Source: Anaerolineales bacterium
GTDB lineage: Bacteria; Chloroflexota; Anaerolineae; Anaerolineales; UBA4823
NCBI GenBank assembly: GCA_025057645.1
Contig: JANXBJ010000001.1
Span: forward strand, 368,357 to 432,356
Direction of reading: 5' to 3'
Length of the DNA stretch: 64,000 nt
Shown: positions 13,759-19,851 of the stretch, piece after piece
How the letters are laid out: each line of letters starts with the position of its first letter
How positions within the stretch are numbered: position 1 is the first letter of the stretch
The notes under the pieces: generated by a model
The model's input: only the letters and a program-made list of their open reading frames with translations
The model's database searches: none
What the model was told of the DNA's origin: nothing
Position numbers and translations under genes: made by a program

Positions 13759-15537
13759 ATGAACCGGAAATTGCTAGCTCTTTTAGCGACCAGTCTGTTG
13801 GTGCTTAGCCTTGTCCTGGCTGCGTGTGCCCAACCGACAGCTACTCCCACACCCGAACAACCCGCCGCTACAGAGATTCCCGAAACGCCTGAACCACCCG
13901 CTGTGACCGAGATGCCGACCCCCACCCAAGCCCCAGCCGAGGAGACGCCACCTCCAAAAGTGCCAATAGCGACTTACGATGGGAGGTCACTCTCTGTGCC
14001 GGATTGTGATTACGGTGGTTACATCAAGTCGATCGAGGCTACTGATGATTACACTGTGACATTTACTCTGTGTAAACCGGATCCGGCTTTTGAAGTTAAG
14101 TTGGCCTTCGGTGTTTTTTCAATCTATCCTAAAGAGTGGATTGAGGCAACGACCGGTCCGACGACCCGTACCAGCGAAGGTTTGGAGAAGCCGGTCGGGA
14201 CTGGGCCCTATATACTGCAAGAGTGGCGTCGGGGTGAAAGTGTCGTTTTGGTCAAGAATCCAAATTATTGGAATCAGGAGCTGATCAAAAACGCCCCAGA
14301 GACGCTGGTGTTCCGCTGGTCTACCGAGTCGGCCGCTCGTCTGCTTGAGTTGCAGGCTGGGACGATCGATGGCTTCGATAATGTAGGACCAGAGGACTTC
14401 GAAGTGGTTAAGAACGACCCCAATCTCCAATTGGTTATCCGCCCGGCTTTGAACGTCTTCTATATCGGCATGACCAATACCTACCCGCCCTTTGATAACA
14501 TCAAAGTGCGTCAGGCCATTGCGATGGGGATTGACCGCCAGAGAATCGTGGATACGTTTTATCCACCCGGGTCTGAAGTGGCTTCCCATTTCACTCCTTG
14601 CGCTATTCCTAATGGCTGCGCAGGGGAGCCCTGGTATGAGTTCAATCCCGAGGCGGCGCGTGCTTTGCTCGCCGAGGCCGGTTATCCTAATGGGTTCAAG
14701 ACAAAGCTTTACTATCGTGATGTTGTGCGTGGGTATTTGCCGCAAGTTGCCAACGTAGCCCAGGATATTCAGGCGCAACTGAAAGAGAACTTAAACATCG
14801 AGGCTGAAATCGTAGTCATGGAGTCGGGTGCCTTCCTCGAGGCTTCGGCCTCCGGGAAACTCGACGGCTTCCATCTCCTAGGTTGGACCGGCGATTACCC
14901 CCATATTACGAACTTCCTGGATTACCACTTTGGAAAGGAGACTCAGCAGTTTGGCAAGATACCGCCCGAAATCTATGAGCCTTTGATCGAGGGTGGGCAA
15001 ATCGCAGATGTTGAGAAGGCTGCACCAGTATACGAGAGGGCTAACAATGCGATTCGAGAATTCGTGCCCATGGTGCCCGTTGCTCATGGAGCCTCAGCGG
15101 CTGCCTATCGGGCAGATGTGGTCAATCCTCAGGCAAGTCCTTTAGGAAACGAGCGCTTCGTCTTTTCGAAGGGTGGTGACCGGGACACCTTTATCTTTAT
15201 GCAAAACGCAGAGCCGATCAGTCTTTTCTGTGCAGATGAAACTGATGGTGAAACGCTGCGCGTGTGCGAGCAGATCACCGAAGCTTTGTTTGCATTCAAA
15301 ATTAACAGCACAGAGTTAGAACCCGCTTTAGCGGAGAGTTGCGAGCCCAATGCCAATCTGACCCAATGGGTCTGCACGCTGCGTCGGGGCGTCAAGTTCC
15401 ACGATGGAAGCGACTTTACCGCTGAAGATGTGGTGGCGACGTTTAACATGGGGTTGAATCCCGGTTCACCAACTCATGTTGGAAATACCAATCTTTGGGA
15501 ATACTACGACTATCTGTGGGGACTGATGTGGAAGTAG
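13759..15537 (+). CDS. Peptide ABC transporter substrate-binding lipoprotein, apparently circularly permuted
   Basis: A 592-residue lipoprotein: the signal peptide ends in LAAC with Cys23 as the lipid site, followed by a Pro/Thr-rich linker to about residue 70. The body is a SBP_bac_5 (DppA/OppA) protein, but its parts are out of order. Residues 71-468 match the usual middle and end of the fold (IKSIEATDDYTVTFTL, PVGTGPYILQEW, and near the end ASPLGNERFVF). Residues 474-592 match the usual start (NAEPISLFCADETDGETL, LEPALAESC, LRRGVKFHDGSDFTAEDVVA). The usual N-terminal segment is therefore appended after the usual C-terminus, with no second copy in front. Cysteines come in pairs (83/105, 281/287, 491/503, 528/539), suggesting disulfides. 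The ATG at 13759 follows GGAGGAGAAAGG. It heads an operon with two permeases and one ATPase. Confidence 0.85.
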   Translation: MNRKLLALLATSLLVLSLVLAACAQPTATPTPEQPAATEIPETPEPPAVTEMPTPTQAPAEETPPPKVPIATYDGRSLSVPDCDYGGYIKSIEATDDYTVTFTLCKPDPAFEVKLAFGVFSIYPKEWIEATTGPTTRTSEGLEKPVGTGPYILQEWRRGESVVLVKNPNYWNQELIKNAPETLVFRWSTESAARLLELQAGTIDGFDNVGPEDFEVVKNDPNLQLVIRPALNVFYIGMTNTYPPFDNIKVRQAIAMGIDRQRIVDTFYPPGSEVASHFTPCAIPNGCAGEPWYEFNPEAARALLAEAGYPNGFKTKLYYRDVVRGYLPQVANVAQDIQAQLKENLNIEAEIVVMESGAFLEASASGKLDGFHLLGWTGDYPHITNFLDYHFGKETQQFGKIPPEIYEPLIEGGQIADVEKAAPVYERANNAIREFVPMVPVAHGASAAAYRADVVNPQASPLGNERFVFSKGGDRDTFIFMQNAEPISLFCADETDGETLRVCEQITEALFAFKINSTELEPALAESCEPNANLTQWVCTLRRGVKFHDGSDFTAEDVVATFNMGLNPGSPTHVGNTNLWEYYDYLWGLMWK

Positions 15538-15605: not shown

Positions 15606-16688
15606 ATGTTGGCTCAATATATTTTTCGTCGGCTCCTCTCCGCTATTCCTGTCCTGTTTGGAATTCTTTTGGTCACTTTTACCTTAGCTAGGGTTATCCC
15701 GGGAGATCCCTGCCGGGCAATCTTGGGGGAAAAGGCAACTCAGGAGGTGTGTGAGCGTTTCATCCGTGAAAAAGGGCTGGACAAGCCTATTCCGGTTCAA
15801 TTTTGGGTTTACCTAAAGGAAATCGCCCGTGGTGATTTCGGACAATCCTTCCGTTATGGCATGCCGGTGACCCGTCTTTTGGTTGAACGATTGCCGACCA
15901 CTGTCGAATTGAGCTTTGCTGCGTTAGCCATCAGTGTCGTCATTGGCATCCCATTGGGTCTCATTTCTGCGATCAAGCATAATTCGTGGATTGATGTGCT
16001 TACGATGATCTGGGCGAATATCGGCGTTTCAATGCCGGTTTTTTGGTTGGGTTTGATGCTAGCTTATGTGTTCTCGTTGACTCTGAAAGGCACACCGTTT
16101 TGGTTGCCTCCCTCCGGCCGGCTGAGTGCGGGCATGAGCGCAGATCCCTTCTACGTGGTGTGGGGATTGGCTCTGCCGGAGTCAGGTCTTCTACTCGCCT
16201 TAGCGCAGTTTATCAGTCGTCTCAACATTTTGAATGCGATTTTGACGGCAAATTGGCCTTTGCTTAAGGACGCAGTTACTCATCTCATTCTCCCCTCTGT
16301 TGCGCTGGCGACAATCCCAATGGCTCTGATTGCGCGGATTACCCGTTCAAGCATGTTGGAGGTATTGGGGCAAGACTATATCCGCACAGCTCGCGCTAAG
16401 GGGTTGCCTTTCTTGAAAATTGTCTTGAAACACGCTTTTCGTAATTCCCTTTTACCCCTAGTCACGGTCATCGGGCTATCCCTAGGAAGTTTGTTAGGCG
16501 GAGCTGTGTTAACTGAGACGATCTTCGGGCTTTCTGGAGTGGGACGCACGCTTTATGATGCAATCACGGCTCGGGATTATGGCATTGTCCAAGCGTTCAC
16601 TGTCGTTATTGCAATTTTCTTTGTGATTCTAAATTTGATGGTTGACATTTCGTATGCCTACTTGGACCCACGGATTCGCCTGGAGTAG
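15606..16688 (+). CDS. Peptide ABC transporter permease (DppB/OppB type)
   Basis: A 360-residue membrane protein. The N-terminal helix begins LAQYIFRRLLSAIPVLFG, and the GDFGQSFRYGMPVT segment is typical of DppB. The EAA loop near the C-terminal third is recognisable as ARAKGLPFLKIVLKHAFRN; it docks on the ATPase. About six membrane helices are expected. It forms one half of the transmembrane channel with the next gene product. It is somewhat longer than the typical 310-340 residues because of an extended loop around residues 155-220. Confidence 0.9.
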   Translation: MLAQYIFRRLLSAIPVLFGILLVTFTLARVIPGDPCRAILGEKATQEVCERFIREKGLDKPIPVQFWVYLKEIARGDFGQSFRYGMPVTRLLVERLPTTVELSFAALAISVVIGIPLGLISAIKHNSWIDVLTMIWANIGVSMPVFWLGLMLAYVFSLTLKGTPFWLPPSGRLSAGMSADPFYVVWGLALPESGLLLALAQFISRLNILNAILTANWPLLKDAVTHLILPSVALATIPMALIARITRSSMLEVLGQDYIRTARAKGLPFLKIVLKHAFRNSLLPLVTVIGLSLGSLLGGAVLTETIFGLSGVGRTLYDAITARDYGIVQAFTVVIAIFFVILNLMVDISYAYLDPRIRLE

Positions 16689-16694
16689 AGTGGA

Positions 16695-17651
16695 ATGAAA
16701 GAGCGACACGGCAGGGCACGGATTTCCTCTTTGGATGTCGAAGGGCTTACTTACCGATCGGCAAGCCTGTGGCAGATTACGTGGCGGAGGTTTTTCCGCC
16801 GCAAGTCCGCTCTTGTAGGCTTAGGGATTCTAGCGGTCTTGGTCTTTATCGCTCTTACAGCCCACTGGATTGCTCCGTATGATCCCTACAAACCGCTGAT
16901 CGGGATTGAGAATGTCCAACGGCGCGAAAAACCCTGCATCCATCTCCTTGGATGTCCCAAGGATCGGCCTCAGCACATTATGGGAATTGATGGGAATGTG
17001 CGTGATCAATTCAGTCGTTTGCTATATGGGGCTCGCTTGAGCTTGGTGATTGGGATTTCAACGGTTAGCTTTGCGATTATCATTGGCACAATTTTGGGGG
17101 CTGTTAGCGGATATTTTGGGGGTTGGGTCGACAATGTGATTATGCGATTTATGGATGTGCTTCTGGCTTTCCCTTCTTTGCTGTTGGCTATCACAATCGT
17201 GACGGTTCTAGGGCCAGGGCTGATCAATGCCTTGATTGCGATCAGTATTGTGTCCATTCCTGCCTATGCGCGTGTAGTCCGTGCGGGTGTTCTCTCGGTG
17301 CGGGAGATGGATTATGTTGCAGCTTCGCGCGCTCTAGGGGGCTCGCATTTCCACTTGATTTTTCAGCGCATTCTTCCCAACGCTCTTACGCCGCTAGTAG
17401 TGCAAGGGACTCTGGGGATTGCTACGGCAATTTTGGAGTCTGCTGCGTTGTCTTTTCTAGGTTTGGGAGCTCAACCCCCTACACCTGAATGGGGTTCAAT
17501 GCTCGGCGCTGAGCGCAATCAGGTTTTTACGGCACCCCACTTGGTTTTCTTTCCAGGCTTTGCTATCATGCTTACAGTCCTGGCCTTTAACCTCCTAGGT
17601 GATGGGCTAAGGGATGCGTTAGATCCGAGATTAGCCCACATTAGCGAATGA
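16695..17651 (+). CDS. Peptide ABC transporter permease (DppC/OppC type)
   Basis: A 318-residue permease of the DppC group. It has the N-terminal OppC-type segment (WRRFFRRKSALVGLGIL), the long periplasmic stretch typical of the group, and an EAA loop with ASRALGGSHFHLIFQRILPN. QPPTPEWGSMLGAERN is the conserved pre-terminal motif. It starts 6 bases after the dppB-type gene and pairs with it. A cysteine pair in the periplasmic loop (KPCIHLLGCPKD) may be oxidised, in line with the many paired cysteines in the binding protein. Confidence 0.9.
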   Translation: MKERHGRARISSLDVEGLTYRSASLWQITWRRFFRRKSALVGLGILAVLVFIALTAHWIAPYDPYKPLIGIENVQRREKPCIHLLGCPKDRPQHIMGIDGNVRDQFSRLLYGARLSLVIGISTVSFAIIIGTILGAVSGYFGGWVDNVIMRFMDVLLAFPSLLLAITIVTVLGPGLINALIAISIVSIPAYARVVRAGVLSVREMDYVAASRALGGSHFHLIFQRILPNALTPLVVQGTLGIATAILESAALSFLGLGAQPPTPEWGSMLGAERNQVFTAPHLVFFPGFAIMLTVLAFNLLGDGLRDALDPRLAHISE

Positions 17652-17676: not shown

Positions 17677-18681
17677 GTGGAAGAGAGTTCGAAGCCGCTT
17701 TTGAAGATTAAGGGACTCTCCACCTACTTCTATACCGAGGACGGGGTTGTCCGAGCCGTAGATGGGGTTGACTTAGAGGTGTACTCGGGCGAGGTTCTGG
17801 GGATTGTTGGCGAGTCCGGGTGTGGCAAAAGTGTCACTTCGCTCTCAATTATGCGCCTCATCGCTCCGCCCGGGAGGATTGTCAAAGGGGAAATTTGGTT
17901 TGAGGGCGAGAATTTAGTGCAGCTCCCTGAAAGCCGGATGAGGAAGATTCGGGGCGACCGGATCTCGATGATCTTTCAACAGCCCCAGACGAGTCTCAAT
18001 CCGGTGCTTATGACTGGTGTCCAAGTCGGAGAGGTGTTCACGATTCATGAAAAGCTGAAAGAGAACGAGGCTTGGAAGAGGGCAGTGGAACTTTTTCGTT
18101 TGGTGGGGATTCCCGATCCCGAACGGAGGGCTAAGTCCTATCCCCATGAAATGTCTGGCGGGATGGCTCAGCGAGTGATGATCGCTATGGCTTTAGCTCT
18201 AAGACCGGCGTTACTTATCGCCGATGAGCCTACAACGGCTTTGGATGTTACTATACAAGCACAGATCTTGGATCTCATGCGAGAGCTGCGCTCGAAGTTC
18301 GGTGCTTCCGTGATCCTGATCACCCATGACTTGGGGGTGATAGCGGAAATGGCAGAGCGGGTGGCCGTGATGTATGCAGGGCAAATTGTCGAACAAACCG
18401 ATGTAGTGAGGTTGTTTGAGCGCCCTCTTCACCCCTACACGGTAGGCTTATTGAATTCCATTCCCATTTTGGGGAGGTATCGGGAGCGATTAGAGGTAAT
18501 ACCGGGGTCGGTGCCAAACTTGGTTGATTTGCCTCCGGGTTGTCGCTTTGCACCGCGGTGTAGTGCAAGGGTGAAATACAAGCTGGAAATCTGCGAGTTT
18601 CAAAACCCGGAGCTCATTGAGGTGGAAAAAGGGCACGCAGTCCGCTGCTGGCTCTACCACCCCACCGGCGATTTAGTTTGA
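17677..18681 (+). CDS. Peptide ABC transporter ATP-binding protein (DppD/OppD type)
   Basis: A 334-residue ATPase. Walker A is GESGCGKSVTS, the signature loop is SGGMAQRVMIAMAL, and Walker B ends LLIADEPTTALD. The C-terminal oligopeptide extension carries a Cys cluster (PPGCRFAPRC, later C and C), as in OppD/DppD. The GTG start has GGAG 7 bases upstream. Dpp and Opp systems normally have two different ATPases; only the D-type is present here and the next gene is coaE. Either a partner is encoded elsewhere or this protein works as a homodimer. Confidence 0.9.
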   Translation: MEESSKPLLKIKGLSTYFYTEDGVVRAVDGVDLEVYSGEVLGIVGESGCGKSVTSLSIMRLIAPPGRIVKGEIWFEGENLVQLPESRMRKIRGDRISMIFQQPQTSLNPVLMTGVQVGEVFTIHEKLKENEAWKRAVELFRLVGIPDPERRAKSYPHEMSGGMAQRVMIAMALALRPALLIADEPTTALDVTIQAQILDLMRELRSKFGASVILITHDLGVIAEMAERVAVMYAGQIVEQTDVVRLFERPLHPYTVGLLNSIPILGRYRERLEVIPGSVPNLVDLPPGCRFAPRCSARVKYKLEICEFQNPELIEVEKGHAVRCWLYHPTGDLV

Positions 18682-18726
18682 CAATCTCTGACCACGGGGC
18701 TAAAATGGGGGGAGAGGGCATAAGCG

Positions 18727-19851
18727 ATGAGCGCTTGGACCGGAAAAACGGTAATCGGCCTGACTGGTAATATTGCCACCGGAAAAAGCGTGGTGCGCAA
18801 GATGCTCGAGCACTTGGGTGCCTACGGAATTGACGCGGATGCGCTCAGCCATCGGGCGATTGCCATTGGTGCGCCGGGCTATCAGCCGGTAGTGGAGACC
18901 TTCGGGAAGTGGATTCTCGCTCCAGATGGCCAGATTGATCGCAGTAAGCTGGCGAAGATTGTTTTCTCTGACCCAGTGGCGCTGAAGAAGTTGGAAAATA
19001 TCATCCATCCCTTAGTCCGTCAGGCGGAAGACCTTCTCATCCGGCGCACGGACAAGCCGGTGGTGGTGGTTGAGGCGATTAAGTTGATCGAATCGGGGTT
19101 TGACCGCCTTTGCGATCAGGTTTGGGTGACTTATGCTCCAGAGGACGTTCAGCTCCGCCGCTTGATGACCAAACGGGGGATGAGCCGGGAGGCTGCCTTG
19201 CAACGCATCCTCGCCCAGCCCCCTCAAGAGGAAAAATTGCAACGCGCCGATGTGGTCATTCGTAATGATCGAGCGCTCAGCGAGACGTGGCAACAGGTCC
19301 TAAGCGCATGGAAGAATCTGCTTCTTGCCAAGGGAGTGGAATGGGAAGAGGAGAAAGCCGCCCCGGGCGGAATTTTAGTGGAGCGGGCCAAACCGAGCCA
19401 GGCCGGTGAGATCGCTGCATTCCTACAAGCTGTACTAGGGAAAAATCTATCCCCTAATGAAGTCATGGAAGCCTTTGGAGAGAAAGCTTTTCTGCTCCTT
19501 CGCAGGGATGGTGTGTTGCGAGGTATTTTGGGATGGAGGGTTGAGAACCTGATCGCTCGAGTAGATGATGTCTTCATCTCTGATCATACACCGCTTGAAG
19601 AAGCTGTGACGCTGTTGATTCGAGAAGTAGAGCGCGCTTCCAAGGAACTTCAATGCGAAGCGGCACTCTTGTTTCTGGCAGAGGAGTTGAAATCGCAGCA
19701 AGAGCTGTGGCGTAAACTCGGCTATCAGGAGATAAAAGCCGGAAATATCGGCGTGCGGGCTTGGCAAGAGGCTGCGCTGGAAGTGGTCCAAGCAGAAGAT
19801 ACGTTGTGGCTTAAGCGCTTGCGAGAAGACCTGGTATTGAAACCGGTGTGA
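18727..19851 (+). CDS. coaE: Dephospho-CoA kinase fused to a GNAT-like domain
   Basis: A 374-residue protein, against about 200 for a usual CoaE. Residues 1-200 form a dephospho-CoA kinase: P-loop GNIATGKS (14-21), GIDADALSHRAI, and the lid region MTKRGMSREAALQRI. This enzyme phosphorylates dephospho-CoA in the last step of CoA synthesis. Residues 216-345 resemble a GNAT acetyltransferase, with DDVFISDHTPLEEAVTLLI and the late LWRKLGYQEI (327-336). The acetyl-CoA pyrophosphate loop (R/Q-x2-G-x-G/A) is not visible, so the second domain may be regulatory and not catalytic. It begins a run coaE-cdaA-cdaR-der with very small gaps. Confidence 0.88.
   Translation: MSAWTGKTVIGLTGNIATGKSVVRKMLEHLGAYGIDADALSHRAIAIGAPGYQPVVETFGKWILAPDGQIDRSKLAKIVFSDPVALKKLENIIHPLVRQAEDLLIRRTDKPVVVVEAIKLIESGFDRLCDQVWVTYAPEDVQLRRLMTKRGMSREAALQRILAQPPQEEKLQRADVVIRNDRALSETWQQVLSAWKNLLLAKGVEWEEEKAAPGGILVERAKPSQAGEIAAFLQAVLGKNLSPNEVMEAFGEKAFLLLRRDGVLRGILGWRVENLIARVDDVFISDHTPLEEAVTLLIREVERASKELQCEAALLFLAEELKSQQELWRKLGYQEIKAGNIGVRAWQEAALEVVQAEDTLWLKRLREDLVLKPV

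Follow-up and report, generated by a model that had tools for sequence, protein, structure and literature searches.

The open reading frame at positions 13759 to 15537 of the window, by which we mean the entire 64,000-nucleotide stretch of Anaerolineales DNA that was analysed, encodes a lipoprotein of 592 amino acids that is very probably a genuine and conserved natural circular permutant of the DppA-like binding lipoproteins of cluster C, and also the receptor for the dppBCD importer whose genes follow downstream. The N-to-C order of the SBP_bac_5 fold is not canonical in this protein but rotated.

Gene and operon structure

The coordinates of the gene were confirmed: the frame contains no internal stop, a GGAGG ribosome-binding site is located just 5' of the ATG at position 13759, and the stop codon ends at position 15537. 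The gene and all features described below are encoded on the forward (+) strand. The deduced protein starts with a predicted lipoprotein signal peptide (13759..13827; MNRKLLALLATSLLVLSLVLAAC) including the lipobox LAAC with the lipidated cysteine C23, and continues with a Pro/Thr/Glu-rich linker comprising residues 24 to 74 (13828..13980), both recognised from the sequence.

The genes dppB, dppC and dppD follow directly downstream. The deduced product of the dppB permease gene (15606..16688) matched DppB of E. coli with an E-value of 3.5e-75 and 250 bits, and its residues E42-K43 align with the scoop-loop pair E41-R42 of the E. coli protein. The adjacent open reading frame represents the dppC permease gene (16695..17651), which is located 3' of the permuted receptor gene in most relatives as well, the pair dppB-dppC being found there in nearly all of them, and the dppD gene (17677..18681) encodes an ATPase with ABC_tran and oligo_HPY domain matches. 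The operon of the window has no dppF gene between dppD and coaE (17677-18727), a position at which several relatives have dppF. A dppF-type ATPase gene that is 73% identical to the one of locus L044 is located elsewhere in the genome (G000:C22:102701-103675), and we assume that the importer is complete, with a dppF-type ATPase supplied from outside the operon. The dephospho-CoA kinase gene of the window (18727-19851) carries a C-terminal extension of ~190 residues that has no Pfam match and appears acetyltransferase-like (GNAT) by eye.

Rotated order of the SBP_bac_5 fold

The first-pass annotation of this DNA had claimed a rotated fold order with one copy of each part, and this claim was borne out by the matches to Pfam, HbpA and DppA. 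The SBP_bac_5 model (PF00496) matched the protein in two stretches in rotated order with 280.8 bits against a cut-off of 32.4, the main stretch linking residues 88-395 to model positions 64-365 of 368. In the comparison with the solved structure of HbpA, residues 86-467 aligned with positions 123-502 and, separately, residues 477-583/585 with positions 4-117 (i-E 2e-8). Likewise, residues 89-467 aligned with positions 124-501 of DppA (1dpp) and residues 507-585 with positions 33-117. According to the matches to solved structures, both parts of the fold are present in single copy and none is missing. On the basis of these alignments, the protein is filed as a member of a circularly permuted SBP_bac_5 branch rather than as a canonical member.

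The permuted protein can thus be divided into residues 88-467 (14020..15159), which represent the ordinary SBP_bac_5 middle and end from DppA position 124 to the C-terminal end, as deduced from Pfam, structure matches and superposition, a junction at which the two original chain ends are joined (residues 468-476; 15160..15186; defined by alignment), and residues 477-592 (15187..15534), which represent the ordinary N-terminal part according to structure matches and the order of helices and strands. The proposed location of the ordinary N-terminal part at the C-terminal end was accordingly retained; its start was moved from residue 474 to about residues 475-477. Residues 71-180, checked as a possible complete N-terminal domain, do not represent one, residue 89 already aligning with DppA position 124. 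The new ends come from a single surface loop that connects a helix with a strand (DppA about 117-124), and the last part ends at this cut in the loop after WEYYDYLWGLMWK, that is, between the ordinary residues ~112 and 124 in the loop after the FEYY helix.

A structure of the mature protein was predicted by AlphaFold2 together with 27 permuted relatives, and the resulting model is compact and DppA-like (pLDDT 90.5, pTM 0.87). VIA-align placed model residues 4-406 on DppA (1dpp) residues 99-507 with a Z score of 29.1, an rmsd of 2.8 and 388 aligned residues. The last eight elements of the model (E410, H430, E444, E453, E458, E469, H488 and H515) match, in order, the initial elements in the model of the ordinary-order relative L070 (E5, H25, E39, E48, E53, E64, H83 and H99-112), and the start of the permuted model (E22, E32 and H44) corresponds to E124, E134 and H146 of L070, where the latter continues; since the control model of L070 is of moderate quality (pLDDT 72), this comparison is limited to element order. 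The aligners are sequential, and therefore the seating of the last 116 residues is judged from pTM, homology and element order, which together suggest that residues 477-592 occupy the position of the DppA N-terminal segment in the fold.

Ligand clamp and predicted function

In DppA, the carboxyl end of the dipeptide is held by R383 and its amino end by D436, and both residues meet E41/R42 in the scoop loop of DppB (PMC12136057). The alignment assigned R324 (14728..14730) and D379 (14893..14895) of the window protein as their equivalents, with roles transferred from the same study. Of 96 permuted proteins, 92 have the conserved arginine at the first position and 93 the conserved aspartate at the second; L085 and the trio L127-L129 deviate. 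The members of this trio are very divergent permuted receptors without the dipeptide clamp, and each is divergently paired with a gene for an ordinary-order substrate-binding protein.

The most likely and best-supported role of the permuted protein is that of an ordinary peptide receptor for the adjoining dpp importer, and the clamp suggests a specificity for short peptides. In the manner of a Venus flytrap, the protein would close around a short peptide and pass it on to DppBC. The DppA equivalog of NCBIfam (NF043070) matched with 183.4 bits, below its cut-off of 1005, and the NCBIfam collection contains no dedicated model for the permuted family.

Cysteine pairs

Besides the lipobox cysteine C23, the window protein contains the cysteines C83, C105, C281, C287, C491, C503, C528 and C539. 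The new N-terminal fold edge (14005..14073) carries the pair C83...C105, and a cysteine pair is present at this edge in 96/96 non-redundant permuted proteins, the spacing being 22 in 75 cases. Cys occupies the C105 column in all 96 permuted proteins versus 0/17 ordinary relatives, and C491 and C503 occur together in 91/96. Strict pairing was also observed for C281-C287 (both in 72 permuted proteins, neither in 24) and for C528-C539 (64 both, 32 neither), the latter pair being found in 4/17 ordinary relatives as well. Moreover, the number of cysteines is even in 110 of 112 permuted modules. These patterns are as disulfides would predict and support such bonds. The earlier suggestion that disulfides stabilise the new topology is supported for C83-C105 and C491-C503, which alone among the four pairs are tied to the permutation; C281-C287 and C528-C539 have no tie to it. 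The C83-C105 bond would be specific to the permuted family and probably holds the new N-terminus, which bears the lipid anchor, against the strand beside it. The tether would then enter the fold elsewhere than in an ordinary DppA-type protein, in which both chain ends lie together in domain I.

Distribution of the permuted family

A search for relatives with the same order revealed it, colinear, in >30 records from Anaerolineae and Caldilineales, and 96 non-redundant proteins in all share both order and cut. Judged from these sequences, the conservation of the permuted order is far beyond chance. The first-pass annotation had overlooked that the protein belongs to so large a family, whose members often have additional receptor domains at the N-terminus. 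The order is found in several groups of Chloroflexota, and the single-contig genomes G047 and G070 are among those that have it. Within the class Anaerolineae, a permuted receptor is encoded in roughly 40% of the 396 genomes sampled. The tally of 186/396 is an upper limit, since the threshold of 1e-75 let through some ordinary receptors, with values of about 1e-76 to 1e-100; by hand count, about 165/396 genomes are clearly above this zone. Further Chloroflexota families with the permuted order are f78, f82, f90 and f98, for which the tally of 72/400 is an upper limit for the same reason. The closest ordinary-order relatives are proteins of Chloroflexota and Bacillota, with some of their genes a few kilobases away from one for a permuted receptor. 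At L078 and L079, the gene order is ordinary SBP-B-C-D-F-permuted SBP-coaE. Besides intact copies, one genome carries a second, broken permuted-receptor copy with several stops (L071 4971-6334; G802:C1:540553-541910).

Complete permuted-receptor-B-C-D-F operons, 63-75% identical, were detected in three genomes from the phylum of Sinomonas (Actinomycetota; L189, L190 and L191), and these operons are nested within the Anaerolineae clade of the tree. Horizontal transfer of the cassette is the probable and simplest explanation. Matches were found in 37/249 genomes of Bacillota, all of them stopping at position 415-432 and representing the ordinary order, none permuted; the cyanobacterial sample contained the ordinary order alone, and a search of Pseudomonadota that was run without a positive control yielded no match at E 1e-85. 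The best apparent full-cover match to a plasmid-borne protein, from Deinococcus, turned out to have the ordinary order when read through and was rejected, and phage records gave partial cover at most and no permuted member. Among solved structures, no permuted chain was detected: for each of the 60 best matches to the family profile, the best stretch ends at or before position 435 of 553.

Fused relatives

Of 120 distinct permuted modules (long frames are over-represented in this collection), 28 are preceded by a recognised receptor or kinase domain, namely SBP_bac_3 in 21, Peripla_BP_6 in six and a Ser/Thr kinase in one. Further single fusions involve SBP_bac_1 (L084), a fasciclin domain (L068) and a caspase-HEAT-FHA arrangement (L116), and a domain of haem-binding type precedes SBP_bac_3 in L110/L111. 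According to a quick tree, the state of SBP_bac_3 fusion changed at least seven times. The kinase (L083 2290-5115) and the caspase-HEAT-FHA part (L116 1409-4666) are fused ahead of the permuted module, and the respective proteins are candidate peptide-sensing receptors.

Fusions of SBP_bac_3 to permuted SBP_bac_5 are encoded in DppB-DppC-GlnP(-GlnQ) operons at L067, L063, L140, L144, L152, L154, L156 and other loci, and a branched-chain amino-acid operon is often located 5' of them. By hand count, a Gln-type permease together with DppB-DppC was found in 13 of the 17 SBP_bac_3-fused loci with enough flanking sequence, usually along with a GlnQ ATPase, versus a Gln-type permease in none of 20 unfused loci. 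At L142, L158 and L159, receptors carrying Peripla_BP_6 have a Gln-type permease and a double SBP_bac_3 receptor as neighbours; here (L142 8556-10451), a lipoprotein with a tandem SBP_bac_3 pair adjoins a receptor in which one or two Peripla_BP_6 domains precede the permuted SBP_bac_5. From the permease pattern, it may be speculated that a single lipoprotein works for two importers. With rather less than even confidence, we propose that the permutation made the peptide receptor a C-terminal plug-in and thereby allowed composite lipoproteins with an amino-acid, branched-chain or sugar receptor in front, in which one anchored protein would feed two ABC transporters of the same operon.

Origin of the permutation and alternative explanations

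Phylogenetic trees were constructed with the permuted sequences rotated back. The 83 permuted rows of the joint tree form one clade (SH-aLRT 99), as do 86/86 in a second set (SH-aLRT 100). Trees of the separate halves each contain one permuted clade with moderate support (bootstrap/SH-aLRT 93/74 for the main part and 85/90 for the N-terminal part), and L117/L121 is the first-branching permuted lineage in both, which argues that the halves travelled together. The simplest reading of these trees is one permutation event with joint inheritance of both halves, followed by inheritance and transfer. Convergent or repeated permutation is not supported, as one permuted clade was obtained in every alignment tried. 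Most likely, the event occurred a single time, in a receptor of the DppA/HbpA-like branch and during the early history of Chloroflexota or before it; the original chain ends would have been linked to each other and a single surface loop (DppA about 117-124) opened to give the new ones. A likely route would be tandem gene duplication and fusion with subsequent loss of the outer parts; a full-length tandem intermediate was not found among the relatives collected.

It is hardly credible that the rotated order stems from faulty sequencing or assembly, or from two partial genes that became fused by chance in a single genome. The window does derive from a fragmented draft genome of 63 contigs, but the same order recurs in dozens of independent records and in the single-contig genomes G047 and G070, which excludes such an error, and the frame has no in-frame stop and both halves give the same clade. 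A domain replacement is very unlikely; here, the N-terminal part of an ordinary receptor would have been lost and its counterpart from a different substrate-binding protein added at the C-terminus. This possibility was raised for TpMglB-2 by the authors who described that protein (PMC4990184), and the two half-trees differ in the nearest ordinary sister (L130/L132 for the N-terminal part, not resolved for the main part), so that a donor inside the DppA-like branch is possible. However, both halves fall into this same branch and share the first split within the permuted clade, and the cut falls cleanly into a loop, every element being present exactly once.

With regard to function, a protein that retained the fold as a sensor or adhesion module and no longer imports would be in line with the fusions to a Ser/Thr kinase, caspase-HEAT-FHA and fasciclin domains and with the loss of the clamp in L127-L129 and L085. 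The window protein, in contrast, is unfused, has the clamp and is encoded directly 5' of dppB-dppC-dppD like most relatives, and such a change of role is unlikely. A single circular permutation that left a functional peptide receptor accordingly remains the preferred interpretation.

Comparison with known systems and implications

All strong sequence and fold matches of the window protein are of DppA/OppA type. The permuted family shares with DppA of E. coli and HbpA of H. parasuis the predicted fold elements (26-32% identity over 380-390 residues), the clamp (R383/D436 equivalents) and the downstream dppB-dppC genes; it differs in the order, which is rotated by about 118 residues with new ends in one loop, and in being a lipoprotein with a Pro/Thr linker and a permutation-specific cysteine pair. 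Natural circular permutation of a membrane-tethered ABC substrate-binding lipoprotein was described for TpMglB-2 (Tp0684) of Treponema pallidum, for which a 'cluster Bc' was proposed and which still binds its ligand and changes shape (PMC4990184). Compared by this description, TpMglB-2 is a type I, cluster B sugar binder with another cut site, and the sequence match of its permuted part is poor (13%). Glycine-betaine-binding proteins are likewise related by circular permutation, which was detected from structure alone at <24% identity (PMC2395249), although they represent other clusters and another family. The fused relatives resemble GlnPQ (PMC8025302) in having several binding domains in series that serve a transporter, whereas the two domains of GlnPQ are linked to the transmembrane domain of their own transporter and the fused relatives combine different receptor types in one lipoprotein with the permuted SBP_bac_5 last. 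No report of a permuted OppA/DppA protein, of a case in SBP_bac_5/cluster C or of one in Chloroflexi was found in the open-licence literature; within this scope, which does not prove priority, the family is apparently undescribed, natural permutation being already known in other receptor classes.

Receptors of the SBP_bac_5 family are very common parts of bacterial importers, and the best-matching solved ones all share one order. An old, widespread and transferable permuted branch that is still coupled to the usual permeases represents a natural test of the roles of chain order and tether position in folding, closing and docking, and it offers natural end-positions for the design of peptide biosensors. 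Moreover, the family exposes multi-receptor lipoproteins that are otherwise hidden under the label 'substrate-binding protein'.
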